This document shows, in pieces, positions 3,082-32,142 of a stretch of DNA of 48,593 nucleotides (positions are counted from its first letter, which is position 1; every line of letters starts with the position of its first letter). Source of the stretch: Opitutaceae bacterium (lineage in GTDB: Bacteria > Verrucomicrobiota > Verrucomicrobiia > Opitutales > Opitutaceae); the NCBI GenBank assembly GCA_016794625.1, contig JAEUGY010000050.1:1-48593 (forward strand). The letters run 5' to 3'. The notes beneath the pieces were generated by a model. It was not told the origin of the DNA. It made no database searches and was given only the letters and a program-made list of their open reading frames with translations. The position numbers and the translations under genes are program-made.

Positions 3082-3138
3082 AGAGTGGGGTGTGGCGACG
3101 GGGACTTCGAGGGTGGAGGGCGGGCGGGTGGTCCCGTT

Positions 3139-3161
3139 GCGGCCTCAGCGAGGCCGCCTAC
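3139..3161 (-). repeat. REP-like palindrome, variant A, reverse
   Basis: Read on the minus strand: GTT, GTAG, perfect 8-bp stem GCGGCCTC/GAGGCCGC with a three-base loop. With 3059-3081 it forms an inverted pair in the spacer between the tRNA-His promoter and the rhamnogalacturonan lyase gene. Confidence 0.75.
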
Positions 3162-3277
3162 AACGGAGAGCTGGAGTGGGGAAGGCGCGGGGTCAGACTG
3201 TCCGGGTGCTGAGAACGTGCGAAAGCGGCGTTTCCGGCGAACCGTTACTGGGCTCGTTTACCCTTACCCTTCGGTCC

Positions 3278-5977
3278 ATGCGTCGTTCTTGGTGTTTCAT
3301 CCTTGTCCTCGCCGGCTGGCTCGCCTTTGCGCCGGGCCTCGCTTCGTTGCAGGCGGCGCGGCAGATTGAACGACTGGGGCGAGGGCTGGTGGTCCTGCGG
3401 CCGACGGCGGGCGGGGCGGTGGTGGTGAGTTGGCGGCTGCTGGTCACCGATCCGGAGGGAGTGGGGTTCCATGTCTACCGCGCGGCGGGTGGAGCGCCGG
3501 CGGAACGGTTGACCGGAACGCCACTGATGCAGGCCACCCACTATGTGGACACGTCCGCACCCTCGGGCGGGGCGGTGAGCTATTTTGTGCGGCCCGTGGT
3601 GGCCGGGATCGAGGGCCCGGCCAGTCCGGCCTCCCTGCTCGCAGCGGGGGCGTCGGCACCCTACCTGGCCGTGCCACTGCAGGTGCCGGCCGGCGGCACC
3701 ACGCCGAGCGGGGAGTCGTTCACCTACAGCGCCAACGATTGCAGTGCGGGAGATCTGGATGGCGATGGTGAGTACGAGCTGGTCGTGAAATGGGATCCGT
3801 CGAACTCAAAGGACAATTCGCAGTCCGGCTACACGGGCCCTGTGCTGATCGACGCGTATCGCATGAATGGAACACGGCTGTGGCGGATCGATCTCGGGCG
3901 CAACATCCGCGCCGGAGCGCATTACACCCAGTTCATGGTCTATGATCTCGACGGCGACGGCCGGGCAGAGCTTGCCTGCAAGACCGCCGATGGCACGACG
4001 GATGGAGCGGGAGTCGTCATCGGCAGCGCAACAGCCGACTATCGCAACAGCAGCGGGTACATCCTCTCCGGGCCTGAATTCCTGACGGTGTTCGACGGAC
4101 TGACGGGACGGGCGCTCGCGACCACGGACTACCTGCCGGGGCGGGGCAATGTCGGCGCCTGGGGCGACACCTATGGCAACCGGGTCGACCGGTTCCTCGC
4201 CTGCGTTGCCTACCTCGACGGGGAGCGACCCAGCCTCGTCATGTGTCGTGGATACTACACCCGCGCCGTCCTCGTGGCCTGGGACTGGCGCGGCGGACAA
4301 TTGACACGACGCTGGACCTTCGACAGCGACGACGGCACGCCGGGCAACGCCGCCTATCGCGGCGAAGGCAACCACAACCTGGCGGTGGCGGATGTCGACC
4401 AGGATGGCCGGGACGAAATCGTCTATGGCTCCTGCGCGATCGACGACACGGGGCGCGGCCTCTACGCCACGGGCCTGCACCACGGCGACGCCCTGCATGT
4501 GTCCGATCACGATCCGCTCCGTCCCGGTCTGGAGGTCTGGGCCTGCCACGAAGACATCAACAACAATGGCGGCGTGGGCCTCAGCCTGCGTGACGCCCGG
4601 ACCGGAGCGGTGCTCTTTACTGTACCTAACACGACGGATACAGGTCGGGCGATCGCGATGGACATCGATCCCCGCCACCGCGGCGCCGAATGCTGGGGAG
4701 CGGCGGGTGGATTGCAGACCGTGGATGGCACCCGGCTGGCCGGGTCACGTCCGTCCTCGATGAACTTCGGCGTGTGGTGGGATGGCGACCTGCTGCGCGA
4801 GATCCTCGACAGCAACCGGATCGACAAATGGAACTGGCTGACGTCGACGACAACCCGTCTGGTGACCGCGACCGATTGCACCTCGAACAATGGCACCAAG
4901 TCCACGCCGGCCCTGTCGGCCGATCTCCTGGGTGACTGGCGCGAGGAGGTGGTGTGGCGCACCACCGACAGTCGCGAACTCCGCATTTACACGACGCCGA
5001 TCCCGACGGAGCGGCGGTGGGTGACGCTGATGCAGGATCCGCAGTATCGCCTTGCGGTAGCCTGGCAGAATGTCGCTTACAACCAGCCGCCGCACCCGGG
5101 ATTCTTCCTCGGTGAAGGCATGGGCCGGCCGCCGACGCCGTTGGTGCGGGTGGTCGGGGCCCCTGAGGCGACCACGCGCCTGACGAACCTGTCGGTCCGG
5201 ACCCAGGCAGGTCGGGCGGAGGAAACGTTGATTGTCGGATTCGCCCTGGCAGGCACGGGTGAACACCGCGTCTTGATCCGCGGCGTTGGGCCGGCCTTGG
5301 GCAGTTTCGGCGTGTCAGGCGTGCTGGCGGATCCCGTGTTGTCGCTGCACGCCGTCACCGGTCCGCTCGCGACCAATGACAACTGGCCGGCGCTGGCGGA
5401 TCCGTCGGCAGCAGTCGTGGCGGCAGCCCAGGTTGGGGCGTTTCCGCTTCCCCCTGGGGGGCTGGATGCAGTGCTGGTTTCCGCACTTGGCATCGGGGGC
5501 TACACGGCTCATGTCACCCCGGCCACCGGGACGGGCGGCGTGGCTCTGGTCGAGGTGTACGGGTTGGCAACGGTGGGTCCGAGCCGGCTGGTCAATGCAT
5601 CGGCCCGGGCGCGGACCGGGACGGGGGCTGACACCCTGATCGCTGGTTTTGCGCTCGCCGGGACGGAGCCGCGTCGTGTGTTGGTGCGGGCGGTGGGACC
5701 CGGATTGGCGCGCTTCGGGGTGGCGGGCGGGCTGGCCGATCCGCGGCTCGCCGTTTACCACGGTGCTGCCGTGCTCGCGCAGAATGAGGATTGGACGAGC
5801 GACTCCGGAGTGGGGGGAGAAGCCTTTGCCCTGCTGGGCGCGTTCCCGCTGGAGCCCGGGGCCCGCGACTCGGCGTTGCTGCTGAACCTCGCGCCCGGTG
5901 CCTACACGGTGCATGCCACCGGATCCGGAAGCACCGGAGGGATTGTGCTGGTCGAGGTCTACGACGCGGGAGGGTGA
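3278..5977 (+). CDS. Secreted rhamnogalacturonan lyase (PL11) with tandem C-terminal repeats
   Basis: 899-residue exported protein. Residues 1-27 are a signal peptide (MRRSW, hydrophobic core, cleavage near LQAA). Residues 30-135 form a fibronectin/Ig-like domain (VVSWRLLVTDPEGVGFHVYR). Residues 136-625 are the eight-bladed propeller of polysaccharide lyase family 11, with calcium-binding loops DLDGDGEYELVVKWDPSNSKD and DLDGDGRAELACKTADGTTDG. PL11 enzymes cleave the rhamnose-galacturonic acid backbone of pectin rhamnogalacturonan I. Residues 630-765 and 767-897 are two copies of one domain (RLxNxSxRxxxG...TLIxGFALAG...RVLxRxVGPxLxxFGVxGxLADPxL...VLVEVY). The frame is open upstream, but the ATG at 3278 is followed directly by the signal peptide, deciding the start. 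No partner CAZymes are adjacent. Confidence 0.9.
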   Translation: MRRSWCFILVLAGWLAFAPGLASLQAARQIERLGRGLVVLRPTAGGAVVVSWRLLVTDPEGVGFHVYRAAGGAPAERLTGTPLMQATHYVDTSAPSGGAVSYFVRPVVAGIEGPASPASLLAAGASAPYLAVPLQVPAGGTTPSGESFTYSANDCSAGDLDGDGEYELVVKWDPSNSKDNSQSGYTGPVLIDAYRMNGTRLWRIDLGRNIRAGAHYTQFMVYDLDGDGRAELACKTADGTTDGAGVVIGSATADYRNSSGYILSGPEFLTVFDGLTGRALATTDYLPGRGNVGAWGDTYGNRVDRFLACVAYLDGERPSLVMCRGYYTRAVLVAWDWRGGQLTRRWTFDSDDGTPGNAAYRGEGNHNLAVADVDQDGRDEIVYGSCAIDDTGRGLYATGLHHGDALHVSDHDPLRPGLEVWACHEDINNNGGVGLSLRDARTGAVLFTVPNTTDTGRAIAMDIDPRHRGAECWGAAGGLQTVDGTRLAGSRPSSMNFGVWWDGDLLREILDSNRIDKWNWLTSTTTRLVTATDCTSNNGTKSTPALSADLLGDWREEVVWRTTDSRELRIYTTPIPTERRWVTLMQDPQYRLAVAWQNVAYNQPPHPGFFLGEGMGRPPTPLVRVVGAPEATTRLTNLSVRTQAGRAEETLIVGFALAGTGEHRVLIRGVGPALGSFGVSGVLADPVLSLHAVTGPLATNDNWPALADPSAAVVAAAQVGAFPLPPGGLDAVLVSALGIGGYTAHVTPATGTGGVALVEVYGLATVGPSRLVNASARARTGTGADTLIAGFALAGTEPRRVLVRAVGPGLARFGVAGGLADPRLAVYHGAAVLAQNEDWTSDSGVGGEAFALLGAFPLEPGARDSALLLNLAPGAYTVHATGSGSTGGIVLVEVYDAGG

Positions 5978-7555: not shown

Positions 7556-9373
7556 TCAGCCAAGCACGACGGTGGTTTGGGGCAGGCGATAGCCCGGGGC
7601 TCGACGCCGGGGGAGAAACGAAAACACGCACAGGAGCACACCCACGCGGCCCACAAGCATGGCCACGACCAGCACTACTTTCGCCGCCGGGCCCAGCTGA
7701 AGGGTCACTCCCCGGGTCAGTCCGACGGTGCTTACGGCACTGACCGCTTCAAAAGCAAGGTTGGCCGGCGGGAGCTCCGGATGCAACGTGCAGAGCAGCA
7801 CGGTCACCAGAAGAATGAAGGCGATGGAGAGCAGCACAATGGCAAGCGCCCGATCGGCGATCTGTGGTTCCAGGCGGCGACCGAAGGCCTCGATGTCGGC
7901 GCGACCGGTGACAATGCGCCGAAGCGAAAGAAAGGCCACGGCGAGCGTCGTGGTCTTGATGCCTCCGGCCGTGCTCGACGGACTGCCGCCGACAAACATG
8001 AGAGCCATCAGCACCGCCGCTGTGGCGGGCAGCAGATTCTCCGTCGCCGTGACGTTGAAGCCCGCGGTCCGCGCGGTGATGGAGTGAAACACACTGGTGA
8101 AGACGGCTGAACCGGCTCGCTGGCCGTAGCCAAAATAGAATTCCGTCAAGCCGATGGTCAGCGCGCCCCCGAGGATCAGGACGGCATTGGTGGTCAAAAC
8201 GATGCGACTATTGGTGCTCAGCCGGGGCTTCTGGGTACGGGCGGGGCGGATCCAGCGCGTCAGGTGAGCGTAGCTGACCAGCCAGAAGTTCTTGAGCACA
8301 GGAAATCCCAGCCCCCCCACCACGATCAGGATCATGACGATGGAAAGAAAACCCGTCCGGTCGACCACCCGGGCGTCCGCCAGACCGGCGCTGAGTGTCG
8401 AGAACCCTGCGTTGCAGAACGCCGAAATGGCGTGAAACAGTGAAAAGAAAACGAGTTCTCCGGGAGGAAGTCCCGAGCCGCGCAGGCTCAGGTGGATGAG
8501 AAAAGCTCCGGCGAGTTCGATCAGCAGGGTGAACCCCACCACCACGCCGAGCACGGTGCCGATGTGATCAAGATTCTCCTCGCTCAGAAGATCGCGCAGC
8601 GCGATGCGACTGCGCAGGGAAACGCCGCCCGCGAGAAAGTAGGCGAAGAAGTAGGTCAACGTCATGACTCCGAGTCCGCCAATCTGGATGAGACCAAGGA
8701 TGATCCACTGGCCGTGACGCGAGAAAGTGGTCGGCACGTCCACGGAGGTCAGACCCGTGACACACGCGGCGCTGGTAGCGGTGAACAAGGCGTCGATCCA
8801 CGAAAGTGGAACCTGCGTTCCGGCCTTGGGCGTCTTGAGCAGAAGGGTGCCAATGCCAATCAACAGGGCAAAACTGAGCAGGAACACCATGCCCGGCGAG
8901 AGACGCCGCGCGGCGAAAAGCTGATTTTCACGCAGCATGCGCAAACCGACGACCGCGATCAACGTCAGCTGGCTCGCCGCGAGGTAGAGCAGCGTGAGAT
9001 TCGATCCGGGCAGTCCCGGGGCGTATTTGCCCAGCCAGGCGACAATGGAGGTGCCTGCCGCGACTTCAAAGGCGACAAGCACGGCCAGAGCCACTTCGAG
9101 ATAGCGGGTTCGCAGGTACGCCCGTTTGTCGGCTTGCAGCAGCAGGCGAAGCGCCTCCTGCACCACGAACGCCATCAGTGCCAACGTGCAGAGCGAGCGC
9201 AGCCGCACCTGCCCGAGGGCGTCCAGCGGCCAGCCAATCAGTATGACCAATGCCGCGAGAGCGACCAGGCCACAGGTCAGGCTGAACCCATCGAGCACCG
9301 CAAGCAGCCGAGTCCGCGGGGTGGGCGAGTTGCCGACGGCGGCTCGGGGTGCATCGGAGGGGGGACGGTTCAT
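7556..9373 (-). CDS. ktrB: KtrB/TrkH-family potassium transporter, N-terminally extended
   Basis: 605-residue inner-membrane protein forming the K+ pathway, driven by Na+ or H+ and gated by KtrA. All four pore loops of the Trk/Ktr/HKT superfamily are visible: TSAACVTGLTS, SAFCNAGFSTL, TARTAGFNV and VSTVGLTRG, each with the filter glycine. GGSPSSTAGGIKTTTLAV is the characteristic loop after the third pore helix. Ordinary KtrB is about 450 residues; here roughly 150 extra N-terminal residues carry four more hydrophobic segments (for example LTCGLVALAALVILIGW and LEVALAVLVAFEVAAG). The start ATG overlaps the stop of the upstream regulator gene by four bases (ATGA), so the two are translationally coupled. 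Confidence 0.9.
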   Translation of the reverse strand: MNRPPSDAPRAAVGNSPTPRTRLLAVLDGFSLTCGLVALAALVILIGWPLDALGQVRLRSLCTLALMAFVVQEALRLLLQADKRAYLRTRYLEVALAVLVAFEVAAGTSIVAWLGKYAPGLPGSNLTLLYLAASQLTLIAVVGLRMLRENQLFAARRLSPGMVFLLSFALLIGIGTLLLKTPKAGTQVPLSWIDALFTATSAACVTGLTSVDVPTTFSRHGQWIILGLIQIGGLGVMTLTYFFAYFLAGGVSLRSRIALRDLLSEENLDHIGTVLGVVVGFTLLIELAGAFLIHLSLRGSGLPPGELVFFSLFHAISAFCNAGFSTLSAGLADARVVDRTGFLSIVMILIVVGGLGFPVLKNFWLVSYAHLTRWIRPARTQKPRLSTNSRIVLTTNAVLILGGALTIGLTEFYFGYGQRAGSAVFTSVFHSITARTAGFNVTATENLLPATAAVLMALMFVGGSPSSTAGGIKTTTLAVAFLSLRRIVTGRADIEAFGRRLEPQIADRALAIVLLSIAFILLVTVLLCTLHPELPPANLAFEAVSAVSTVGLTRGVTLQLGPAAKVVLVVAMLVGRVGVLLCVFSFLPRRRAPGYRLPQTTVVLG

Positions 9374-10482
9374 TCGGGCAGGTGGGGAGGCTTGACCGAT
9401 TCCCCCGGGAAGTGACGAGGAAAGATGAGGTGGGGCTCTGCGGGCAAGCTCCCTTCGTTCACCAGCTTCAACACGAGACGCGAGAGCCGGCGGGCGAGCA
9501 CATGGTCGTCGAAGGGATAGTGCGAGATCGACGGTTGCACCGTGCTGAAGAGGAGATCCTGATCCCGGGCGATCAGCGAAACCGTGTCCGGCATGGTCAG
9601 CCCGCGTTTCAGCAGATACAGAATCACGGCAAAGACATGCCACGGCTTGACCACCAGCAGCGCCGTCGGTGGATGCGGAGAACGAAAGTGAAGGTCGAGA
9701 CGCGACGCGAGGTGCGCCGCGGTTCCATCGTGGCGGATCACGGCGGCGGCGATCGCTTCCTTTTGCGGATGCCGACCCACTCCTTCGAGAAAACCGGTTT
9801 CGCTCGCCAGGTCTCCGGCCATCTGGGTGTCCGGCAGGACCAAGGCAACGGACCGGTGCCCCTTGCCCAGGAGCACCCCCACGGCATGGCGGCAGACGGA
9901 CCGATGATCCACATCGATCGAAGGCAGCAGGACCGAAGGATGACAGGAGCCGAGCACGAGCGCCGGCACCTTGTGTTCCATGAACCACAGCTGCACCTCC
10001 CGGCTGACCGACATCAACACGCAGCCGTGCAGCTGGTGCTCCTGCACAAACGCCTCGATCTTGCGCCGTTGCGTGGAGGGACGATTCGCCTGGCAGACCA
10101 GCATTTCCGTGACAAATCCGTGATCGGCCAGCGTGGCGCGCAAGGTCGTGATCCCGTGGAACGACGAATGGGCGAGCTGGGAAACCGGTTCGGCCGAAAT
10201 CAGGCCAATGACGCGACTCCGAGGCGGCGCCGCTGACTTGCGTCGCGGCAAAATCCGGATCCGGCACCCCTGCCGGATTTCCAACCACCCCTCCTGGGCG
10301 AGAGCATGCAACGCGGTGCGAACCGTCGGCCGGCTGACCTTGAACACGTCGCACAAACGACGTTCACTGGGCACGTATTCCTCCCACAGTCCCTGCTCGA
10401 TGGCCTTGCGGATTGCCGCTGCCGTCTGACTCGACAGCGAAAGTCGATGGGGCAGGTCAAAGGGGCTCCGGGAGCTGCTCAT
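9370..10482 (-). CDS. GntR-HTH / LacI-type sensor transcription regulator
   Basis: 370-residue repressor-like protein. Residues 15-80 are a GntR winged helix: AAAIRKAIEQGLWEEYVPSERRLCDVFKVSRPTVRTALHALAQEGWLEIRQG, with the P-SER-L and VSR-x-TVR recognition helix. Residues 90-355 are a periplasmic-binding-protein-like sensor of the LacI/GalR type (RVIGLISAEPVSQLAHSSFHGI..., LPSIDVDHRSVCRHAVGVLLGKGHRSVALVLPD, SLIARDQDLLFSTVQPSISHYPFDD). This architecture (as in AraR) senses sugars or sugar acids. The gene is divergent from the aldolase at 10542 across a 59-base spacer, which suggests it controls that cluster, and its stop overlaps ktrB's start by ATGA. Confidence 0.9.
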   Translation of the reverse strand: MSSSRSPFDLPHRLSLSSQTAAAIRKAIEQGLWEEYVPSERRLCDVFKVSRPTVRTALHALAQEGWLEIRQGCRIRILPRRKSAAPPRSRVIGLISAEPVSQLAHSSFHGITTLRATLADHGFVTEMLVCQANRPSTQRRKIEAFVQEHQLHGCVLMSVSREVQLWFMEHKVPALVLGSCHPSVLLPSIDVDHRSVCRHAVGVLLGKGHRSVALVLPDTQMAGDLASETGFLEGVGRHPQKEAIAAAVIRHDGTAAHLASRLDLHFRSPHPPTALLVVKPWHVFAVILYLLKRGLTMPDTVSLIARDQDLLFSTVQPSISHYPFDDHVLARRLSRLVLKLVNEGSLPAEPHLIFPRHFPGESVKPPHLPE

Positions 10483-10485
10483 ATC

Positions 10486-10502
10486 GTATTACCAGTGGAT
10501 TT
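10486..10502. promoter_or_regulatory. Candidate operator in the divergent spacer
   Basis: The 59-base spacer between the regulator and the aldolase contains TATTACCAGTGGATT, an imperfect dyad centred on ACCAGTGG(A)T. It lies close to the regulator's start and is the only dyad-like element in the spacer, so it is the best candidate for the binding site. The match is short and could be chance. Confidence 0.3.
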
Positions 10503-10541
10503 CGCTGTTTTGGCGAGGATCGCTTTGTCTTTCTGAACCCT

Positions 10542-11450
10542 GTGAAACAACCCATTTCCGTGCAATCCTGGTCGGCGACCCCGACACCGCTGACACCGAC
10601 CCTTGAGGTGGATGTCCCGTCTGTCGGACGGATGATCGAGGCGGCCGTCGCGGACGGGCTGCATGGTCTGTTCATGGCTGGAACCTGTGGCGAAGGCCCG
10701 TGGCTGGCCAATCGGGAGCGCATCCGCCTGATCGAGGCGGCGAGCAAGGCGGCCCGGGGCCGCATCAAGATTGCCGCCCAGGTGTCGGATAACTCGGTGC
10801 CGCGCATCCGCGACAATATGAACGACATGGCCGCGGCGGGGGCTGATTACGTCGTGATTGCGCATCCGCCCACCTTGCTCAACGCGACGCCCGAGCGCGT
10901 GGCCGGGCTGTTCCTGGAGGCGTCGACGATCAGTCCTCTGCCGGTGGGCATCTACGACCTGGGTTCGCGCCGGCCCCTGGCCATCGCCGAAGACCGTCTG
11001 GAAAGCGTATACCTTCACCCCAAAGTGGAGTTTGTGAAGGACAGCTCCGCCGCGCCGAGCCGCCGGGCGATCGCGCTGTCTGCCCGCGCCAAGCGGCCCG
11101 GCCTGAAGCTGTTCAATGGCGATGAATTCTGTGCGATCGAATACCTGGAGGCCGGTTACGACGGTTTCATGTTCGGTGGCGCGGTGGTGGCGGCCCCGCA
11201 TCTGCGCCGGATCGGCGAACACTTCGCCGCCGGTCGCCTGGCCGAAGCCAAGGCCGAGGATGAGGCCATGAAGGCGATGCTGTACGGAATTTACGGGGGC
11301 GAATCGATCGCCTGCTGGTTGACGGGGCTGAAGTATTGCCTGCAGTGCATGGGCATGTTCTCCACGTCCACGAGTTTTCTCGGTTATCCGCTCACGGCGG
11401 AGTGCAAAGCCTACATCGAGGCCTACGTGGCGCGCCGCCAGCGGGGATAA
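10542..11450 (+). CDS. DHDPS/NAL-family aldolase, first gene of catabolic cluster
   Basis: 302-residue TIM-barrel protein of the dihydrodipicolinate synthase / N-acetylneuraminate lyase superfamily, which makes or splits 2-keto acids through a Schiff base. The Schiff-base lysine is K166 in VEFVKDSS; the catalytic tyrosine is Y138 in GIYDLGS; the substrate carboxylate loop is GTCGEG (47-52). Two positions differ from textbook DapA: the second Thr of GTTGE is Cys, and the usual YNxP is YDLG, so a role in lysine synthesis is unlikely. The GTG at 10542 gives the normal family N-terminus (KQPISVQSW...TPTPLT). Position beside a sugar-sensing regulator and before an SDR gene points to sugar-acid or amino-sugar catabolism. 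Confidence 0.85.
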   Translation: MKQPISVQSWSATPTPLTPTLEVDVPSVGRMIEAAVADGLHGLFMAGTCGEGPWLANRERIRLIEAASKAARGRIKIAAQVSDNSVPRIRDNMNDMAAAGADYVVIAHPPTLLNATPERVAGLFLEASTISPLPVGIYDLGSRRPLAIAEDRLESVYLHPKVEFVKDSSAAPSRRAIALSARAKRPGLKLFNGDEFCAIEYLEAGYDGFMFGGAVVAAPHLRRIGEHFAAGRLAEAKAEDEAMKAMLYGIYGGESIACWLTGLKYCLQCMGMFSTSTSFLGYPLTAECKAYIEAYVARRQRG

Positions 11451-11475
11451 GCGGCGGGACGTCCCGTTTTCGATC

Positions 11476-12222
11476 ATGAAGCCACTTCGCGTCATTGTGA
11501 CCGGCGGCGCCACCAACATTGGTCGCGCGATCACTGAGGTTTTTCTCGCCCAGGGAGCGCGTGTGGCCATTGGCTACCGCAAGCCCGGCGCGGCTGATCC
11601 GCTGCTCCAGTTGTATGGCGATCGCGTCGTCGCTTTGCCACTCGAGCTGGGCAATGTCGCAAAGTGTCAGGCATTTATTCAGGGGGCCGCGGAGGCGTTG
11701 GGCGGCGTGGATGTGCTGGTCAATAACGCGGCCATCACCGGTCCGGCGGCCATTTCTTCGCTGGAGACGGTTAAGCCCGCCCATGTTGACGAGGTCCTGC
11801 GCGTGAACATCACGGGCCTGATCTTCTGCTGTCAGGCTGCGCTGCCGCATCTTCGGGCCTCCGGCCGGGGTGTGATTATTCACATTTCGTCGATCAATGC
11901 GTTTCGTCCCCAGCGGGGAGCCTTGGTCTATGCCGCGACCAAAGCCGCGATGACCTCGCTCACGCAGTCGATGGCGAAGGAGCTCGCGGCGGATCACATC
12001 CGCGTCGTGGCGGTGGCGCCGGGTGACATTCAGACCCAGACCTCCGATCAGGTGGATGCCGCGTTGACCTCCCGCGGGGTGGTTTCCGATGTCGTCAATC
12101 AGACTCCCCTTGGACGCGGCCGTCCCGCAGACGTGGCCGAAACCGTGGCGTTTTTGTGTTCCGACAAGGCGGCGTTTGTGACCGGTGTGACCTGGTTGGT
12201 CGACGGCGGTCTGCTCGCGTGA
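11476..12222 (+). CDS. Short-chain dehydrogenase/reductase
   Basis: 248-residue classical SDR. The cofactor loop TGGATNIG is at residues 9-16, NNAA at 83-86, catalytic Ser near 138-139 (HISSINAF), and Y152-x3-K156 in VYAATKAAM. The C-terminus GVTWLVDGGLLA is the usual tetramer-interface ending. Classical SDRs oxidise or reduce sugar, polyol and 3-oxo-acyl substrates with NAD(P)(H). It follows the aldolase by 25 bases on the same strand and is probably co-transcribed. The substrate is unknown, but pairing with a keto-acid aldolase suggests oxidation of a sugar-acid intermediate. Confidence 0.9.
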   Translation: MKPLRVIVTGGATNIGRAITEVFLAQGARVAIGYRKPGAADPLLQLYGDRVVALPLELGNVAKCQAFIQGAAEALGGVDVLVNNAAITGPAAISSLETVKPAHVDEVLRVNITGLIFCCQAALPHLRASGRGVIIHISSINAFRPQRGALVYAATKAAMTSLTQSMAKELAADHIRVVAVAPGDIQTQTSDQVDAALTSRGVVSDVVNQTPLGRGRPADVAETVAFLCSDKAAFVTGVTWLVDGGLLA

Positions 12223-12230
12223 CCCCGACG

Positions 12231-13202
12231 TCAAATGGGCGCCAGGGTGGCGAGCGCGTCGCCCTTTCGAACCGAGCGCTGGCGTCGCAACAGCACCACT
12301 TTTCCCGCCCTTTCGGCCTTTACCACCGACGCGCCCACGCCCTCGAGGCCGTGGACCACGCCGATGACCTGGCCCCGGCGCACGGCGGCGGCCAGCTGGA
12401 TCGAGGGTACAAAGAGGCCGTCGTGCGGCGCGGGGTGGTGAACTTGCAGGTGTGCCTCGTCGACATCGCGAGTGATGCGTTCCACCTGACGCTTCAGCTT
12501 CAGCGGCCCGCGCGCCGGCACGTAGCCGAGCCGCACGAGCACGTGGTGCAACCCCCGGTCGAGCGCGGCGGCGTCACCGGCGTCCACGCCCCCGGCCCCC
12601 TGGCATTCGACGTAGATGGCGGCCACGCCCCGCGCAAAGGCGGCACTCAGGGTCCGGCCCGGCAGGTAAGGTCCCGACCAGCACCAGAACGTGTCGAAAC
12701 ACGCGGACATGGCGCGCTGGGTCGACTCCAGCGCCCCGCTCTGCGTCACATAGCCGACCCACGGGAAAAGCTGGTACGCGGCGCCCGCGCTGTGGAGGTC
12801 GATGTAGTGCTGCGCTTGCGACAAAACCTGTGTGTCGAACAACCACGCGAGCCGCTGACTGACCCGGCCGTTGCCGCGACCGGGAAAAGACCGGGCGAGG
12901 TTGCCGCCGTCGCCCGGATGGCAGCGCTGGCCCGCGTAGAACGCCGCCTCGTTCAGGACCGGGATGAAGACCACCGTACCCTTAAGTCCGGATGGGCGCC
13001 AGGATTCCGTCCATTGACGCAGCACGGTGGGTCCCTCGTACTCGTCACCATGCGTCGCACCATTGACGACCAGAACCGGACCCGGTTCCCCACGCCAGAC
13101 GTAGGCCGTGAAGCCCGCGCCGCGGGTCGAGAACCGCAGGGTGTGGAACCCCTTGGTCAGCCGGGAGAAATTGAGATGAGAAGGCAGTGAGGAAGCGGCC
13201 AT
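12231..13202 (-). CDS. AstE/AspA-like M14 zinc deacylase
   Basis: 323-residue member of the succinylglutamate desuccinylase / aspartoacylase branch of the M14 carboxypeptidase fold. Zinc ligands are visible as H51 and E54 in THGDEYEG and H137 in YIDLHSAG; the substrate arginine/asparagine block is LNEAAFYAG...GDGGNLARSFPG, and the catalytic glutamate is probably in IYVECQGAGG. Residues 230-323 form the beta-barrel cap (LFVPSIQLAAAVRRGQVIGVV... RSVRKGDALATLAP). These enzymes remove acyl groups from N-acyl amino acids or related amides. It is opposite in strand to its neighbours; its ATG overlaps the ATG of the divergent gene at 13201. The frame extends upstream, but the ATG at 13202 fits the family. 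Confidence 0.8.
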   Translation of the reverse strand: MAASSLPSHLNFSRLTKGFHTLRFSTRGAGFTAYVWRGEPGPVLVVNGATHGDEYEGPTVLRQWTESWRPSGLKGTVVFIPVLNEAAFYAGQRCHPGDGGNLARSFPGRGNGRVSQRLAWLFDTQVLSQAQHYIDLHSAGAAYQLFPWVGYVTQSGALESTQRAMSACFDTFWCWSGPYLPGRTLSAAFARGVAAIYVECQGAGGVDAGDAAALDRGLHHVLVRLGYVPARGPLKLKRQVERITRDVDEAHLQVHHPAPHDGLFVPSIQLAAAVRRGQVIGVVHGLEGVGASVVKAERAGKVVLLRRQRSVRKGDALATLAPI

Positions 13203-14307
13203 GAAGAGAAACAAACCCAAAACATCCGGTCCGAAGCCAAAGGCGCGCCCGTCGGTCCGGCAACCCCGCGCGACTGGAAAAGCGACCAGACCAGTGATCC
13301 GACGGGTCACGGATGCCGGTCGCGCCTGCCTCGCCCTCGAAAACCGTCTTTGCCGGATTGTGATTTGTCCCGAACAGGGTGGGGCGATTGTCAGCTACGT
13401 GCACCGGCCGAGCGGGATCGATGTCCTCTGGCGCAACCCCTATGGCCAGCCCCCGCGAAAACGCGTGCTCGACCAGCCGATGGCGGGGTGCAGCGATCTT
13501 TTCGACGTGATGGACGGCAGCTGGTACGTGTCGCTGCCCACCGGGTTTTTTCCCTCCGACTACTTTGGCGCTCCGATCGGTACGCATGGCGAGATCCGCA
13601 GCGTGCCGTGGACGGTGGAGCGCATGGGGCGCGGACCGACGTGGGTCGAGGTGACCCTGTTGGGGTGGTCCGTGCGCACGCCGCTGGGGTACCGGCGCAC
13701 ACTGCGCCTTGACGCGTCCAGCTCCCGCCTTGAGTGGACCGAGACCGTGATCAACCGGGCCCCGGAAGCGCTGCCGGTGGCCTGGCTGCAACATCCGGCG
13801 TTCGCCGGACCCCTGGTGGAGGGGGCGCGGTTGCTTGCTCCGGCGCGCACCGTGCGCGTGTACCGGGCGGACGACCCCGCGCAGCTCCAGCTGGCGTCCG
13901 GGTATGAGGGCGCCTGGCCCCTGGTGCCGGAGCGGGAGACCGGACGCCTACGCGACTGCAGCGTCGTGCCCGCCGCCACGAGCGGTCACGACCACTCGGT
14001 GCAGCTGGCAGATTTTGAGTCGGGTCGCGGCTGCATTTGGAACGAAGGCCTTGGCCTTGGATTCTTGATGGAATGGGACGCCCGGATCTTTCCCATCGCC
14101 TGGTCCTGGGCCCGTGGCGGCGGACCCTGCCGTTATCCGCTCTGGGGCGCCGGCCAGCTCATCACCCTGCAGCCCAGCACCTCGCCGGTCGGAGCGTTTC
14201 CCGAGCTGGTGCGCAACGGCACCGTGCTGACCGTGCCGGCGCACGGTGAGGTCAGTGCCACCTTTTTCACCGGATTCGTCACCCGCTCCGACGGGCCCTA
14301 CGTCTAA
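13201..14307 (+). CDS. Aldose 1-epimerase-like protein (galactose mutarotase superfamily)
   Basis: 368 residues. From about residue 37 on, the protein reads as an all-beta galactose-mutarotase-like fold: ICPEQGGAIVSYVHRPSGIDVLWRNPYG at the start, FDVMDGSWYVSLPTGF, GTHGEIRSVPW (the HGE block typical of these proteins), the LRLDASSSRLEWTETVINRAPEALPVAWLQHPAF strand pair and a carboxylic WNEGLGLGFLMEWD region. The first 36 residues are rich in Lys, Arg and Pro and unlike an export signal. GAGGAA ahead of the ATG at 13201 is a usable ribosome site. Related DUF4432/epimerase-like proteins are commonly found in sugar catabolism clusters; the exact sugar is unknown. Confidence 0.75.
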   Translation: MKRNKPKTSGPKPKARPSVRQPRATGKATRPVIRRVTDAGRACLALENRLCRIVICPEQGGAIVSYVHRPSGIDVLWRNPYGQPPRKRVLDQPMAGCSDLFDVMDGSWYVSLPTGFFPSDYFGAPIGTHGEIRSVPWTVERMGRGPTWVEVTLLGWSVRTPLGYRRTLRLDASSSRLEWTETVINRAPEALPVAWLQHPAFAGPLVEGARLLAPARTVRVYRADDPAQLQLASGYEGAWPLVPERETGRLRDCSVVPAATSGHDHSVQLADFESGRGCIWNEGLGLGFLMEWDARIFPIAWSWARGGGPCRYPLWGAGQLITLQPSTSPVGAFPELVRNGTVLTVPAHGEVSATFFTGFVTRSDGPYV

Positions 14308-14326
14308 ACCCTCGACCCGATTCCTC

Positions 14327-15406
14327 ATGCACCTTTGGAAACACGCCGACAAATGGGACGCGCCGCCGGCGGCGACGGCCATCACTCTGGGTGAAGGCGG
14401 GACGCCCTTGGTCCGCTCGGTGCGCATCGGCCCGGCGCTCGGCCTGCGCAACCTCTGGTTCAAGATCGAGGGCAGCAATCCCACCGGATCCTACAAGGAC
14501 CGCTTTGCGGCCTCGGCGGTCAGTCACCTCATGGCGCGGGGCGTGAAGGCCTGCCTCGGCACCTCCAGCGGCAATACCGGGGCGGCGCTGGCGGCGTACT
14601 GCGCGCGGGCGGGACTGCCCTGTTATCTCGCGATCGTGGAAGGAGCACCCGAAGGCAAGTTGCGCCAGATGGCGGCCTATGGAGCCCGACTCTTCCGCAT
14701 CCGCAGTTTTGGCGCCTCGCCCGCGGTCAGCGCCGACGTCATGGGCGGCCTCGGTGCGCTGGCCCAGGAGTTGAATGCTGGATACGAAATCAGTGCGTTC
14801 ACCTTTTCGCCCCGGGGCATGTCCGGGGTCCAGACCCTCGCATTCGAGATCGCGGATGAACTCGGCGGCGGACCCTTGCACGTGTTTTCTCCCGCCGGCG
14901 CCGGCGGTCTGACCCTTGCGGTGGCCCGAGGATTCGCCCGCTGGGGCTCCGCGGCCCGCGTGCACTGCGTGCAGCCGGCGGGCAATGATACGATCGCCAC
15001 CCCGCTGCGCTCGGGCGCGACGCGCGCCCGTGCGGTCGAGTCGAAGACCCAGATCAGCGGCCTGCAGGTGGGCGGGGTTTTGGATGGCGACGCCACGGTC
15101 GCGGCCTGTCGCGCCTCGGGCGGCCAGGGGTATGTGGTCACCGACGATGACGTCTGGAGCTGGCAGGCGCGCATGGCCCGGGAGGAAGGCCTGTTTTCCG
15201 AGCCCGCTGGCGCCGTCGCCCTGACCGGCGTGGCGCAAGCATTGCAGCGCGGTGAACTCACTGCCGACGACACGGTGGTCTGTCTGGTGACCGGCAGCGG
15301 GTTTAAGGATGAACGTTCACTGATTCGCATGACCGGGGCGGAAGGCACGCCGCTCCTGGAGAGTTTCGCCGCGTTCTCGGCTGCTGTTCGTCAGGGACTT
15401 GGGTGA
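14327..15406 (+). CDS. Threonine synthase-like PLP-dependent lyase
   Basis: 359-residue fold-type II PLP enzyme. The PLP lysine is K57 in EGSNPTGSYKDRF; the phosphate-binding loop is the glycine-rich SPAGAGGLTLAVARG, and SSGNTGAALAAYCARAGLPC is the substrate-carboxylate loop. Sequence most resembles threonine synthase and related threonine/serine lyases; the LVTGSGFKD near the C-terminus is typical of threonine synthases. The canonical N-terminal zinc-free extension of plant-type ThrC is absent. It lies 19 bases after the epimerase-like gene and apart from other amino-acid genes, so a catabolic role (for example 2,3-diamino or beta-hydroxy amino acid deamination) is as likely as threonine synthesis. 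Confidence 0.85.
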   Translation: MHLWKHADKWDAPPAATAITLGEGGTPLVRSVRIGPALGLRNLWFKIEGSNPTGSYKDRFAASAVSHLMARGVKACLGTSSGNTGAALAAYCARAGLPCYLAIVEGAPEGKLRQMAAYGARLFRIRSFGASPAVSADVMGGLGALAQELNAGYEISAFTFSPRGMSGVQTLAFEIADELGGGPLHVFSPAGAGGLTLAVARGFARWGSAARVHCVQPAGNDTIATPLRSGATRARAVESKTQISGLQVGGVLDGDATVAACRASGGQGYVVTDDDVWSWQARMAREEGLFSEPAGAVALTGVAQALQRGELTADDTVVCLVTGSGFKDERSLIRMTGAEGTPLLESFAAFSAAVRQGLG

Positions 15407-15522
15407 GTCCGGCCCGCCCGGCGTTTCGCCCGGTGGGGGGAGGGCGCGCGATCCGGCGGCGGAGAATCCCGTTTACAGCGTTTCGGAAAGTCCGAAGCCT
15501 TTCCGTACCTCACCCCCTTCTT

Positions 15523-16932
15523 ATGCGTGCTGTTTCTCGATTGGTGTCCCGAGTTCTCGGTCTGCGCGGTGCCACGCTGCGCGGTCTTTTGCTGGGAGGC
15601 GCCTTGCTGGCGTCCACCTCCCTGCACGCCGGCCCCTGGGAGTCGCTCTTTGACGGCAAGACCCTGACGGGCTGGAAGCAACTCGGCGGAGTCGCCCCGT
15701 ATGCGGTGGTCGATGGCGCCATTGTGGGCACCACGGTGTCCGGTACGCCCAATAGCTTTTTGGCGACGGAAAAGACCTATGGCGATTTCATCTTCGAATG
15801 CGACATGCGCCAGGAAGGGGGAGGCACCAACAGTGGCGTCCAATTCCGCAGCCAGAGCCTGCCGGATTACCAAAATGGACGGGTGCACGGCTATCAGCTG
15901 GAGATCGATCCCACGCCCAGGGCGTGGAGCGGCGGGATCTATGATGAGGGCCGGAGGGGCTGGCTCTACCCCGGCACGCTGAACCCCGCTGCGCGTGATC
16001 TTTACCAGCTGGAGCGCTGGAACCGGCTGCGCATCGAGGCGATCGGTTCGTCGCTGCGCACCTGGATCAATGGCGTGCCCGTCTCGCACGTGATCGACCA
16101 CCTGACGCCGAACGGATTTCTTGCCCTGCAGGTGCACAGCGTCGGCAACCAGCCCGGTCAGGCCGGCCGCCGCATCCTCTGGCGCAACCTGCGTATCCAA
16201 ACAACAGATCTCGTGCCGTCGCCGGCGGATGCAATCTTTGTCCGGAACCTCATCCCCAACACCGTGAGCGAGGTGGAGAAGGCCCAGGGGTGGCGTCTGC
16301 TGTGGGATGGGGCGACGGGTGCGGGATGGCGCGGTGTCAACCAGACCACATTCCCCGCCGGTGGCTGGACCATCGAGAAGGGTGAGCTCTCCATTTCACC
16401 CCCGGCCAAGCCGGAGGAAAAGCGGGCCGGCGGCGATATTGTGACCGAGGAGCTGTTTGGCGCCTTCGAACTCGCGCTCGAATTCAAACTCACGCCCGGC
16501 GCCAACAGCGGCATCAAGTACTTTGCCGTGGAGAAGAGTCCCGGTGGCGCCCTGGGCCTCGAATTTCAATTGCTGGACGATGAAAAGCACCCCGACGCCA
16601 AAATGGGCGCCGGAGGCAATCGCACGCTGGGCTCGCTTTACGATCTCATTCCCCGTTCAGCGATGCCGGGTGGACTGGCCATAGTTCCGCGCGTGGGAGA
16701 GTGGCAGCACGCCCGGATTGTGGTCTATCCCGACAATCGGGTAGAGCACTGGCTGAATGGCATCAAGGTCGTGGAATACGTCCGTGGTTCACCGCTCTAC
16801 AAGGCGCTGGTGGCCCGGAGCAAGTTCGAGAAAAACGTGGACTTCGGGCTGGCGCCGCAGGCGCGGCTGCTGCTGCAGGACCACGGCGATCGCGTCAGTT
16901 TCCGGAGCATCAAAGTGCGGACGCTGCAGTGA
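15523..16932 (+). CDS. Secreted double-domain DUF1080 protein (3-keto-disaccharide hydrolase family)
   Basis: 469 residues: an export signal at 1-37 (MRAVSRLVSR..., hydrophobic GLLLGGALLAS, cleavage near LHAG), then two concanavalin-like DUF1080 domains. Domain 1 (about 40-225) begins WESLFDGKTLTGWKQLGG and contains GGTNSGVQFRS and GYQLEIDPTPR; domain 2 (about 250-468) begins GWRLLWDGATGAGWRG and contains PGANSGIKYF and LGLEFQLLDDEKHPDA. Several members hydrolyse 3-keto-glycosides produced by periplasmic glucoside 3-dehydrogenases. The frame is open further upstream, but the ATG at 15523 gives the signal peptide. It closes the plus-strand cluster and meets the TPR gene tail to tail. Confidence 0.88.
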   Translation: MRAVSRLVSRVLGLRGATLRGLLLGGALLASTSLHAGPWESLFDGKTLTGWKQLGGVAPYAVVDGAIVGTTVSGTPNSFLATEKTYGDFIFECDMRQEGGGTNSGVQFRSQSLPDYQNGRVHGYQLEIDPTPRAWSGGIYDEGRRGWLYPGTLNPAARDLYQLERWNRLRIEAIGSSLRTWINGVPVSHVIDHLTPNGFLALQVHSVGNQPGQAGRRILWRNLRIQTTDLVPSPADAIFVRNLIPNTVSEVEKAQGWRLLWDGATGAGWRGVNQTTFPAGGWTIEKGELSISPPAKPEEKRAGGDIVTEELFGAFELALEFKLTPGANSGIKYFAVEKSPGGALGLEFQLLDDEKHPDAKMGAGGNRTLGSLYDLIPRSAMPGGLAIVPRVGEWQHARIVVYPDNRVEHWLNGIKVVEYVRGSPLYKALVARSKFEKNVDFGLAPQARLLLQDHGDRVSFRSIKVRTLQ

Positions 16933-16968
16933 GTCTGGCGGGACGGTGGTGAATCCCGCGCTCGGGGT

Positions 16969-17277
16969 TCACCCCATCTCTGCGAGCAGAGCGCGGACCT
17001 CGGCCTCGGGATCCTCATGGTGCTGGTCGATGGCGAGACGCAGCGCCTCCTCCAGCACCGGTTTCGCCTCGGCGCGACGTCCCTGCGCGAGCAGGACTTT
17101 GCCCAGCGCGATGCGCGGAATCATCCAGTCGGCCTGCGACTGGGCGCACAGGCGCAGGTGCGGCTCCGCTTCGGGCCCCCGTCCTGCCGCGAGCAGAGCC
17201 TGGGCGAGACTGAACCGGAACAGCGTGTTGGCCGGGTTCCGGTCGAGGAGGGTGGAGAAGTGAGCGATGCGATCCAT
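16969..17277 (-). CDS. Small tetratricopeptide-repeat protein
   Basis: 102 residues, almost wholly TPR helices: residues 1-33 (MDRIAHFSTLLDRNPANTLFRFSLAQALLAAGR), 34-67 (GPEAEPHLRLCAQSQADWMIPRIALGKVLLAQGR) and 68-100 (RAEAKPVLEEALRLAIDQHHEDPEAEV) each follow the TPR spacing of G/A/P positions. No signal peptide, so cytoplasmic. It lies 34 bases downstream of the dinG-like helicase on the same strand and is probably co-transcribed. Binding partner unknown. Confidence 0.8.
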   Translation of the reverse strand: MDRIAHFSTLLDRNPANTLFRFSLAQALLAAGRGPEAEPHLRLCAQSQADWMIPRIALGKVLLAQGRRAEAKPVLEEALRLAIDQHHEDPEAEVRALLAEMG

Positions 17278-17311
17278 GGGAGGGGAGATAGATTTTGAGA
17301 TCGAAAACGGA

Positions 17312-19411
17312 TCACGCGGCACCGGACCGAGGATACGGTTTGAATTTCGCCTCGCGGTCAGCCCGCGTGATGCGTTCGAAGCGCGGCTGTGGGAGCGAGT
17401 CGAGGAACAGACGGCCATAGGACTTGGCGAGCACCCGTGAGTCCAGGATGGTGATGAGGCCGCGATCGGTGGTGGTGCGGATGAGTCGGCCGATGCCCTG
17501 GCGGAACTTGATCAGGGCCTCGGGCAGGGTGAGTTCCGAGAAGGGATTGCCTCCGGCCTCGCGAATCGCGTCGCTGCGCGCCTCCAGCACGGGATGCGTT
17601 GGTGGATCAAACGGCAGGCGGGTGACGATCACCTGCGCGAGCGCGTCGCCCGGAATGTCGACTCCGGTCCAGAAGCTCTCAGTGCCGAACAGGATCGCGT
17701 TGCCCAGCCGGCGCATTTCCTTGGACAACTCCGTCCGGGACATCGCTTCCCCCTGCATCAGAAACGGTCGCTCCGCGGCCCGCCACTCGGACTCGAGGGC
17801 CTGGGCCACCGCGCGCATATCGGAGTAGCTGGTGAACAGCACGAGCGTCCCGCCGTCCACGCACTGGGTGCAGAAACGCACATAGTCGATCAGGCAGTCC
17901 AGCGCGAGCCGTGCCTCCTGCGGTGAGGGCAGGGGCACGTCGGCCGCCACGTAGACCCGCATGTTGGCTTCAAAATCAAAGGGGGAGGCCACCGCGATGG
18001 CCCGGGCGGACTCGGCGCCGATCCGTCGGGCGAATACCTCCAGCTGTCCCCCGACGGCGAGGGTCGCGCTCGTGCAGATGACGCTGGTGCCGCAGCCAAA
18101 AAGGTGGTCGCGCAAGGCCGGGGCGATGTCGATGGGCGCGCTGCGCAATGTGACGATGGTCTGCCGCCGGCCGCTGCGCTCGGCCCAGTAAACGTGTCCC
18201 GCCTGGGCCAGCTGCAACCACTCGTTCAGGCCTGCCTGCAGGGCCTTCAGGCGTTGCTTTTGTTCGAGGTACTCATCCCGCTGCCGGCCTTCCTCCATGC
18301 GATCGGCCACCTTGGCGATCGCACGTTCCAGAGCCGCGAGGGGACCCTCCAGCATGGACTCGACCGGACCGGCTTCCCGCAGCCGTGCGAGCGGACGCTG
18401 CGTCAGCAGGTGCGCGGACAGTGCCTCGAAAAAGCGACGCGATGCCTCGAGTCCGTCGAGCACCAGTTGCGTGACCTCCCGGCCTGCGACCTTGGCGAGC
18501 AGGCCTCGTTTGGTCTTCGGGTTGAAGAGGTACTTCAGCATGCGGTCCACCCCGTAGCTGCTCAGATGCAGGCCAAAGTTGTCACTCGCGACTTCGGGCA
18601 CCGTGTGCGCCTCATCGAGCACGACAAAGTCGTCGGGAAAAAGGACCCCGCGCGAATCCCCCCCTCCGCCCTGGGCGCGGGCGCCGCCGGCGTTGATCAG
18701 GGCAAACAGCAGCGCGTGATTGACGATGATGACCTGGGCCGCGCGAAGACGCGAGCGGGCGCGCTGGTAAAAGCAACGCTCGCAGTCGCAGTGCTTGCGC
18801 GAGCACGATGACGAGTCCGCGCTCACCATCTCCCACACTTCGGGCCGTGGCGGCGGACGCAGATCGTGACGCACGCCGGTGTCGGTCGACTCGGCCCAGT
18901 CAGCAATGCGCTGCAATTCGCTGTAGTCGTCGTCGGTGAACAGACTGGCGCGCTCCGCCAATGCGTGCGACAGACGCGTGGTGCACAGGTAGTTGGACTT
19001 CCCGATCAGCACGCAGCTCTTGAAGGCAGCGTACGAAGCCGTTTCCGGCGAGGAGGCGAGCACGCGACGGCAGAGCGGAAGGTCCTTGGTTTCCAGCTGC
19101 TCCTGCAACGAAATGGTGTGCGTCGAGACAATCATCTGCCGCGATTGACTCATGGCATGGACAATGCCCGGCAACAGGTAGGCGAGGGACTTGCCGACGC
19201 CCGTGCCTGCCTCGAAGAGAAGAGGGTCATCGGCGGCGAGCGCGGCGGCCACGGAGCGACCCATCTGCGATTGCTGGGGTCGGTGTTCCAGTTGCAGGTG
19301 GGTCGCGAGCAGTCCCTCGGCGGCAAACAACCGCGCGGCCACGGCCGGCGCCTGGGAGGGCGGCGGCAGCGGAGGCAGCGTGGAGTCTGTGTCGTCGCGG
19401 AGTCCGATCAT
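17312..19411 (-). CDS. dinG: DinG/XPD-family iron-sulphur DNA helicase
   Basis: 699-residue superfamily 2 helicase. Walker A is FEAGTGVGKSLAY, motif II is VVLDEAHTVPE (DEAH), the C-terminal helicase domain has GTESFWTGVDIPGDAL and the motif VI QGIGRLIRTTTDRG. Four cysteines for a 4Fe-4S cluster are visible: one in GKSNYLC and three in CSRKHCDCERC, as in DinG and XPD. These enzymes unwind 5'-3' and clear R-loops or replication blocks. The ATG at 19411 (MIGLRDD) is where the family begins; the longer open frame upstream is an artefact of GC bias. It faces the divergent P1B ATPase gene and heads a two-gene unit with the TPR gene. Confidence 0.88.
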   Translation of the reverse strand: MIGLRDDTDSTLPPLPPPSQAPAVAARLFAAEGLLATHLQLEHRPQQSQMGRSVAAALAADDPLLFEAGTGVGKSLAYLLPGIVHAMSQSRQMIVSTHTISLQEQLETKDLPLCRRVLASSPETASYAAFKSCVLIGKSNYLCTTRLSHALAERASLFTDDDYSELQRIADWAESTDTGVRHDLRPPPRPEVWEMVSADSSSCSRKHCDCERCFYQRARSRLRAAQVIIVNHALLFALINAGGARAQGGGGDSRGVLFPDDFVVLDEAHTVPEVASDNFGLHLSSYGVDRMLKYLFNPKTKRGLLAKVAGREVTQLVLDGLEASRRFFEALSAHLLTQRPLARLREAGPVESMLEGPLAALERAIAKVADRMEEGRQRDEYLEQKQRLKALQAGLNEWLQLAQAGHVYWAERSGRRQTIVTLRSAPIDIAPALRDHLFGCGTSVICTSATLAVGGQLEVFARRIGAESARAIAVASPFDFEANMRVYVAADVPLPSPQEARLALDCLIDYVRFCTQCVDGGTLVLFTSYSDMRAVAQALESEWRAAERPFLMQGEAMSRTELSKEMRRLGNAILFGTESFWTGVDIPGDALAQVIVTRLPFDPPTHPVLEARSDAIREAGGNPFSELTLPEALIKFRQGIGRLIRTTTDRGLITILDSRVLAKSYGRLFLDSLPQPRFERITRADREAKFKPYPRSGAA

Positions 19412-32134: not shown

Positions 32135-32142
32135 GCGGTCGG

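Follow-up and report, generated by a model that had tools for sequence, protein, structure and literature searches.

A conserved gene block with an antisense AstE/AspA-type deacylase in Opitutae-type bacteria and its putative role in oxidative N-acetylhexosamine breakdown

A block of genes next to a sugar-type regulator was identified at positions 9370–16932 of contig JAEUGY010000050.1 (assembly GCA_016794625.1) from an Opitutaceae bacterium; the whole stretch analysed, 48,593 nucleotides, is referred to here as the window. This block is a real, conserved unit, and its gene content makes it likely that it encodes an oxidative, non-phosphorylative route for an N-acetylhexosamine. Domain identities in the window were taken from Pfam and NCBIfam scans. 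The regulator gene (REG; 9370–10482, minus strand) combines a GntR winged helix (49 bits) with a LacI-type Peripla_BP_3 sensor (60 bits). Divergent from it on the plus strand are a gene for a DHDPS-family class I aldolase (DHDPS; 10542–11450; Pfam DHDPS, 81.7 bits), which resembles N-acetylneuraminate lyase (NAL) or 2-keto-3-deoxygluconate (KDG) aldolase, and one for a short-chain dehydrogenase (SDR; 11476–12222; adh_short_C2, 178.6 bits), a proposed N-acetylhexosamine 1-dehydrogenase. An AstE/AspA-type zinc deacylase and proposed sugar-acid N-deacetylase (ASTE; 12231–13202; AstE_AspA_cat, 83.8 bits against a cut-off of 25) is encoded antisense on the minus strand. The plus strand continues with EPI (13201–14307), which has a predicted aldose-1-epimerase/galactose-mutarotase fold (DUF4432, 27 bits, below the cut-off of 32.5) and may be a mutarotase or a sugar- or lactone-handling helper; PALP (14327–15406; 237.6 bits in Pfam), a threonine-synthase-like fold-type-II pyridoxal-phosphate (PLP) enzyme, which may act as a β-eliminating ammonia-lyase on a 2-amino-2-deoxy sugar acid; and a gene for an accessory, apparently exported protein with two DUF1080 (3keto-disac_hyd) domains (15403–16932, likely start near 15523; 270.3 bits in Pfam). 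All families that the initial annotation had named from the letters alone were recovered where it had placed them, and its catabolic cluster behind a sugar-type regulator is borne out by conservation across loci; the single block divergent from the regulator that it described holds as a conserved unit, but with its deacylase encoded on the minus strand it does not form a simple co-directional operon.

Conservation was assessed in 28 loci, i.e., the window and 27 loci from named genomes, found with EPI as the query (EPI is therefore present in 28/28 by construction); 24 of the 27 are titled Opitutae, Opitutia, Opitutales, Opitutaceae, Opitutus or Lacunisphaera, two Verrucomicrobia, and one (L046) Acidimicrobiia. 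Neighbours were counted within 10 kb of EPI as matches of at least 60 bits at any identity; many contigs in this set end early, and absences are not firm. SDR was present in 26 loci, the deacylase in 25, PALP in 23, the regulator and DHDPS in 18 each, N-acetylneuraminate epimerase (NANM) in 15, MFS in 14, HpcH/HpaI in 13, BNR in nine, SSF in five, RraA-like and mandelate-racemase-type genes in three each, and DUF1080 in two. A 40% identity floor reduced the counts for SDR (to 25), NANM (14), MFS (11), SSF (3), and the mandelate-racemase type (2), and left those for regulator, DHDPS, deacylase, EPI, PALP, DUF1080, HpcH, RraA, and BNR as they were. The regulator, DHDPS, SDR, ASTE, EPI, and PALP were found all together in 13 of the 28 loci, and SDR, ASTE, and PALP in one locus in 22. 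The co-occurrence in relatives that the initial annotation had envisaged for its six families is thus seen for the core genes, which stay together and do not scatter independently, but not for DUF1080; with a linkage of 2/28, the DUF1080 protein is ruled out as a pathway member, and neither the glycoside attack by this protein that had been placed as the first step nor the keto-glycoside proposed as an alternative substrate is upheld. The organism's own genome holds 17 DUF1080 matches, 16 of them above the cut-off.

EPI is patchily distributed: a genome search found it in nine of 57 relatives, and its profile matched 25 of 200 genomes from the family (E ≤ 1e-40). PALP was found in 27 of these 200 genomes (E ≤ 1e-80), 20 of which also carry EPI (Fisher p = 2e-17, kinship ignored). 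This co-occurrence and the joint presence of the six-gene set in 13 loci place the arrangement far beyond chance. The pairwise distances of ASTE, EPI, and PALP also correlate (r 0.90–0.92; 17 selected loci, 16 with PALP). Loci from six of the seven genomes with PALP and without EPI were read, and in each of them PALP has an SDR gene and an AstE-type gene as neighbours; since these loci keep all three genes, the dehydrogenase, the deacylase, and the PLP enzyme are the minimal module, and the parts that vary between loci are EPI, the kind of aldolase, and the transporter. In three of the six, SDR and ASTE are close relatives (58–60% and 53–55% identical, respectively); in the other three, both are just 33–36% identical. 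Two of the six (L074 and L075) have another gene order, ASTE-SDR-PALP on one strand, and the AstE_AspA_cat domain was confirmed by Pfam in L074. Across a sample of the phylum, the PALP profile was found in five of 387 genomes, one of which (G532) lies outside the family; there, a PALP homolog (50% identity) adjoins HpcH-like (31–36%) and SDR (34%) genes, suggesting that the module may be distributed more widely than the family.

Two further proteins recur at these loci. An exported-looking protein of ~540 amino acids with the motif (R)RELFVDD is encoded in L071, L072, L073, L080, L024, L035, and L045, directly after PALP in L071–L073 and L080, and had no Pfam match in the two L024 copies scanned. 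A conserved 288-amino-acid protein (X288) is encoded between the aldolase and SDR genes in L048 (5089–5955), L053, and L051; the L048 copy, the one scanned, had no Pfam match.

The ATG codons of ASTE and EPI overlap in a single palindromic CATG, found at 13200–13203 in the window (both strands) and in 22 of the 25 loci holding both genes; L047, L049, and L053 lack it, and L048 has three candidate sites. Because the two starts overlap, these loci have no room for an intergenic promoter between ASTE and EPI. A Shine-Dalgarno-like word precedes EPI, inside the ASTE coding region, in 14 of the 22 loci (background in the same loci, 879 of 8833 ATGs) and precedes ASTE in none of the 22. At the other end of ASTE, a gap of 8–11 bp separates its stop from the convergent stop of SDR in 19 of 24 rows. 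As for individual rows, L042 is an artefact of the SDR match chosen by the script, L051 is a broken copy, L049 has both genes on one strand, so that a gap is meaningless, and L048 and L053 have ~1.2 kb between the stops. An opposite-strand gene interspersed in a co-directional block is what a noncontiguous operon would look like, and the layout resembles in this respect the Staphylococcus aureus menE-menC-MW1733-ytkD operon, as reported in PMC7154746. The CATG start conserved across many genomes is an extra feature here.

The word T[T/G]ACCAGT was found in 19 of 21 REG spacers examined (including two second copies of other rows), and the two spacers without it have TTACCAGA. Its only occurrence in the whole window is at 10489–10496 (plus strand), within the REG/DHDPS spacer (10483–10541); the background is 32 occurrences in 776,904 strand-positions, spacers included. 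REG has a 52% identical paralog beside NANM in its own genome (locus L070), and there the word occurs only once on the plus strand, in the spacer between the REG paralog and NANM. TTACCAGT is a candidate operator, and the word is common to the window and this second locus.

In DHDPS, Y138 and K166 are invariant in 10 homologs; a profile search of solved structures returned DHDPS 4xky (118.6 bits) and N-acetylneuraminate lyases (81–91 bits) without separating the subfamily. The protein is not diagnosable from its sequence as sialic acid lyase or KDG aldolase, and it does not resemble a typical sialic acid lyase. SDR matched just generic SDR relatives among solved structures. The nearest solved relative of ASTE is DoeB, an N-acetyl-L-diaminobutyrate deacetylase (151 bits by profile), which is also its only NCBIfam match (115 bits against a cut-off of 402.7); the HxxE motif (H53, E56), H139, and E201 (numbered from a reference start at 13208), the zinc-binding and catalytic residues of this family, are invariant in eight homologs. 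H198 of EPI is invariant in 15 sequences. K61 and the SSGNTG motif of PALP are invariant in 12 homologs; NCBIfam scored PALP at 160 bits as threonine synthase and at 50–67 bits as EutB. PALP as the genome's threonine synthase was rejected, with 119.2 bits on thrC (TIGR00260; cut-off 167.1) and another gene elsewhere in the genome at 249.4 bits. In the reaction set of the initial annotation, removal of an acyl group was listed before oxidation and the PLP enzyme was a deaminase; this set can be refined, in that SDR probably acts ahead of ASTE, and PALP is better read as a β-eliminating ammonia-lyase than as a plain deaminase.

The substrate class proposed initially, an N-acylated amino sugar acid, is favoured by the comparative evidence. 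The sequences themselves show which genes are present, that their order is conserved, that NANM and a sialidase-fold protein are encoded nearby at other loci, that the window and L070 have an operator word in common, and that NanE is absent; every reaction, the sequence of steps, and the substrate are what we infer. Sialic acid would be freed and imported by a BNR/esterase protein, a TonB receptor, and a NANM mutarotase encoded at L070. The DHDPS-family aldolase may cleave it to N-acetylmannosamine (ManNAc) and pyruvate. SDR would then oxidise C1 to the lactone or acid, with EPI possibly mutarotating the sugar or handling the lactone; ASTE would take acetate off N-acetylmannosaminate; PALP would eliminate the β-hydroxyl and ammonia to give KDG; and, depending on the genome, an HpcH/HpaI, RraA, or DHDPS-type aldolase would split KDG into pyruvate and glyceraldehyde. 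Such a route would proceed without a kinase, NanE, or GlcNAc-6-P (GlcNAc, N-acetylglucosamine). A pyruvate aldolase of the DHDPS, HpcH/HpaI, or RraA family was found in 22 of the 28 loci, and DHDPS and HpcH occur together in 11, which fits this scheme because two aldol cleavages would need both. D-Mannosaminate is L-configured at C2, and D-glucosaminate is D-configured; mannosaminate would therefore suit an AstE/AspA/DoeB-type deacylase, since its C2 has the configuration of an L-amino acid.

ManNAc/sialic acid is the likeliest main substrate of those considered, yet falls somewhat short of an even chance; the GlcNAc-2-epimerase-family genes described below lower the estimate slightly, from just under one half. 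The most complete version of the proposal, which we hold as a possibility with considerable doubt, is a sialic acid pathway of Opitutae-type bacteria, so far undescribed and free of phosphorylated intermediates throughout, that would run through ManNAc, N-acetylmannosaminate, mannosaminate, and KDG to two pyruvate and glyceraldehyde, with a deacetylase drawn from the N-acyl-L-amino-acid deacylases, an ammonia-lyase drawn from threonine synthase, and a noncontiguous operon with CATG-coupled expression; the recruitment of an L-type deacylase and a threonine-synthase relative would follow from mannosaminate being L at C2. No description of this pathway was found in the literature searched, with most subscription journals outside the search; among the matches listed, mannosaminate and N-acylmannosamine terms did not occur, the only related term being "N-acetyl-D-mannosamine dehydrogenase".

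Linked neighbours, i.e., NANM, a sialidase-fold BNR protein, and a second aldolase, suggest sialic acid. NANM is linked to EPI in three geometries: after PALP, accompanied by HpcH and MFS genes; at the opposite side, pointing away from SDR (L036, L039, and L045, with the regulator between in L036); and in a run DHDPS-NANM-X-HpcH-SDR (L048 and L053). A possible fourth, upstream of EPI in L050, has only 30% identity. Three NANM proteins scored 121.3, 100.6, and 114.5 bits on Pfam PF24996 (cut-off 45). NANM is accompanied by BNR_2 proteins, in one case as a fusion with a GDSL esterase; a model of the L043 protein (pLDDT 70) has a sialidase β-propeller fold, with mostly sialidases in the top 50 Foldseek matches, the uncharacterised protein 5hx0 as the best match, and a TM of 0.67 to Porphyromonas gingivalis sialidase. 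By eye, E233, R249, R315, and Y362 of the BNR proteins are invariant in six rows, and other residues vary. PMC5673642 reports GH33 genes and a single sialic acid transporter in freshwater verrucomicrobial metagenome-assembled genomes, and PMC2693436 reports NanA homologs in Verrucomicrobia. In the organism's own genome, L070 (C47:72500–92000; genes at 7663–17725) has the REG paralog divergent from NANM, a BNR_2+GDSL gene, a TonB receptor, and a second BNR_2 gene. Another locus, L069 (C93:8000–27999), has matches to the BNR_2, NANM, DHDPS, and HpcH/HpaI families, together with frames that only weakly resemble SSF, mandelate-racemase-type, RraA-like, and regulator (37%) genes; it may encode a sister route that handles a non-amino sugar. 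NanE (PF04131) had no match in this genome, which is 95% complete, even at an E value of 1; of the 200 family genomes, three have it, and all three lack EPI. Over the 200 genomes, NANM is present in 21 of 25 with EPI and 48 of 175 without (p = 7.5e-8, kinship ignored).

Several observations weigh against sialic acid as the substrate or against parts of the scheme. Nine of the 10 genomes listed for the window's genus carry NANM (5/6 with EPI and 4/4 without); because the association is absent within the genus, physical linkage rather than genome-level association is the main NANM evidence, and the window has neither NANM nor HpcH linked to the block, both lying elsewhere in the genome. The two NANM proteins scanned with NCBIfam missed the cut-offs of its NanM subfamily models (126 of 416 bits). 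The own genome also holds two GlcNAc-2-epimerase-family genes (PF07221, 149 and 135 bits). Some members of this family convert ManNAc to GlcNAc, and others use other sugars; the absence of NanE alone does not force an oxidative exit, since these genes could route ManNAc via GlcNAc. On the nanA/NAL models of NCBIfam, DHDPS scored 31–37 bits, far below the cut-off, against 71 for dapA, and the position of NAL Glu192, which contacts the C8–C9 diol (PMC3014015), appears by eye to hold Phe. The BNR active-site set is incomplete, with one putative active-site Arg replaced by His in L044, and modelled putative sialidases of Opitutaceae TAV1 and TAV5 are described in PMC4930215 as lacking the full set of nine sialic-acid contact residues. 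Gln324 of EPI lies where a motif reading would place the catalytic Glu of GalM. This reading, like that of H198, presumes the catalytic roles of the GalM His and Glu. Searches of solved structures matched no enzyme with the activity proposed for PALP or SDR. In L047 and L049, a mandelate-racemase-type enzyme takes the place of PALP and ASTE is kept, which the simple scheme leaves unexplained. Finally, the argument from C2 configuration does not discriminate against L-hexosamines. In L049, an HpcH/HpaI gene adjoins SDR.

The same chemistry could instead act on GlcNAc or N-acetylgalactosamine (GalNAc) from chitin, glycosaminoglycans, or capsules, yielding a 2-keto-3-deoxy sugar acid with DHDPS as the terminal aldolase; the NANM/BNR linkage would then be coincidental or serve another sugar, or ManNAc would first be epimerised to GlcNAc. 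The ong pathway does this chemistry for GlcNAc1A (PMC9537276), DHDPS is nearer the archaeal KDG-aldolase model (42.7 bits) than the NAL models, NANM is missing from the 10-kb range at 13 of the 28 loci, and the two GlcNAc-2-epimerase-family genes would fit as well. We nonetheless regard this alternative as rather unlikely, given that NANM is linked in three geometries (and a fourth at low identity) and that ASTE comes from a family of N-acyl-L-amino-acid deacylases. GlcN1A and GalN1A are D at C2, and most characterised PALP relatives use L-substrates. The same chemistry might also serve an N-acetyl-L-hexosamine or a 6-deoxy or diamino sugar from bacterial polysaccharides, examples being L-FucNAc and the sugar moieties of legionaminic and pseudaminic acids, L-fucosaminate having the exact L-threonine configuration at C2–C3; the relatives of HpcH include 2-keto-3-deoxy-L-rhamnonate aldolase models, the BNR model also resembles the pseudaminidase 2w38, and the enzyme replacing PALP in L047 and L049 is a relative of sugar-acid dehydratases. 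Such substrates appear improbable, however, as no gene specific to these sugars was recognised in the selected neighbours scanned with Pfam or NCBIfam.

An ectoine-like route, in which a DoeB-like deacylase and an EutB-like PLP dehydratase degrade an N-acyl amino acid or a compatible solute, would account for DoeB being the only NCBIfam match of ASTE and for an M24 peptidase adjoining ASTE in L074, as ectoine operons carry an M24 peptidase. However, ASTE scores far below the DoeB cut-off and PALP scores far higher as threonine synthase than as EutB, and the pyruvate aldolases of 22 loci and the sugar-mutarotase fold of EPI would be superfluous for ectoine, so that this explanation is very improbable. 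A chance assembly of unrelated genes might be read from the opposite-strand gene and the unconserved DUF1080 protein; it is refuted by synteny, since across many genomes the gene order is conserved, start codons overlap, and distances correlate, and its probability is close to nil.

The block is flanked by housekeeping genes, with TrkA and TrkH to the left and a helicase (DEAD/Helicase_C_2) to the right by Pfam; in the nearest relative, L027, open reading frames matching the TrkH and TrkA frames of the window lie on the same side. The window also encodes a rhamnogalacturonan lyase (3092–5974; RGL11_C, 848 bits), suggesting that this organism probably attacks pectin-type polysaccharide as well, and, at 28812–33501, an MMPL transporter close to a DUF1329 gene.

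If sialic acid is degraded by the oxidative route proposed here, its use by bacteria with NANM- and sialidase-type genes and without NanE would be explained, N-acetylmannosaminate and free mannosaminate would become catabolic intermediates, and PLP and zinc enzymes filed as "threonine synthase" and "aspartoacylase" would gain a testable role. The route would also be a counterpart of the ong pathway, which serves oxidised chitin, and stereochemistry would explain why its deacetylase is unrelated. With its conserved antisense position and the CATG start that it shares with EPI, ASTE lends itself to testing the concept of noncontiguous operons.

Among known systems, the canonical NanA-NanE-NanK-NagA-NagB pathway shares with the present loci a NANM-type mutarotase, a sialidase-fold protein, and an aldolase of the NanA superfamily; it differs in that the genome studied here has no NanE, and ManNAc would be oxidised rather than phosphorylated. 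Non-phosphorylative sugar-acid pathways consist of a dehydrogenase, a dehydratase, and a KDG-type aldolase. The present loci resemble them in SDR, the mutarotase-fold protein, and interchangeable DHDPS, HpcH, and RraA aldolases, and in having a mandelate-racemase-type enzyme at the place of PALP in L047 and L049; the deacylase and the PLP enzyme are additions unneeded there. PALP has the fold type II and the Schiff-base lysine motif of threonine synthase (PDB 2zsj, 1uim, and others), but the NSxNPxRxEGQKT stretch of that enzyme reads SAxxxSPxGMxGVxT in PALP. The Arg of this stretch, which we take to bind the substrate phosphate, is thus missing. ASTE has the catalytic domain of DoeB (PDB 6twl and 6twm), although it scores low on the DoeB model and its context looks sugar-catabolic. 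No KDG kinase was found by Pfam among the window genes and neighbours scanned, which are a part of all neighbours, the genome as a whole not having been searched; L074 has a ROK-family kinase. The closest parallel is the ong pathway of Pseudoalteromonas prydzensis for GlcNAc1A, described in PMC9537276 and PMC12017989 as using a putative D-aminoacylase and a D-amino acid deaminase. In both, an N-acetyl-aldosaminate would lose its acetyl group before a PLP-type enzyme converts it by deamination to a 2-keto-3-deoxy sugar acid, under the control of a repressor (OngR in the ong cluster, by those accounts). The block described here differs from what these sources report in its AstE/AspA-type and threonine-synthase-type enzymes (OngB being of the D-aminoacylase-like amidohydrolase type), in pyruvate aldolases linked in place of the phosphorylation of KDG by KdgK, and in an SDR that belongs to the cluster. 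What appears new is a putative analogue of the ong route in which the deacetylase is of an unrelated family and the PLP enzyme has its relatives elsewhere.

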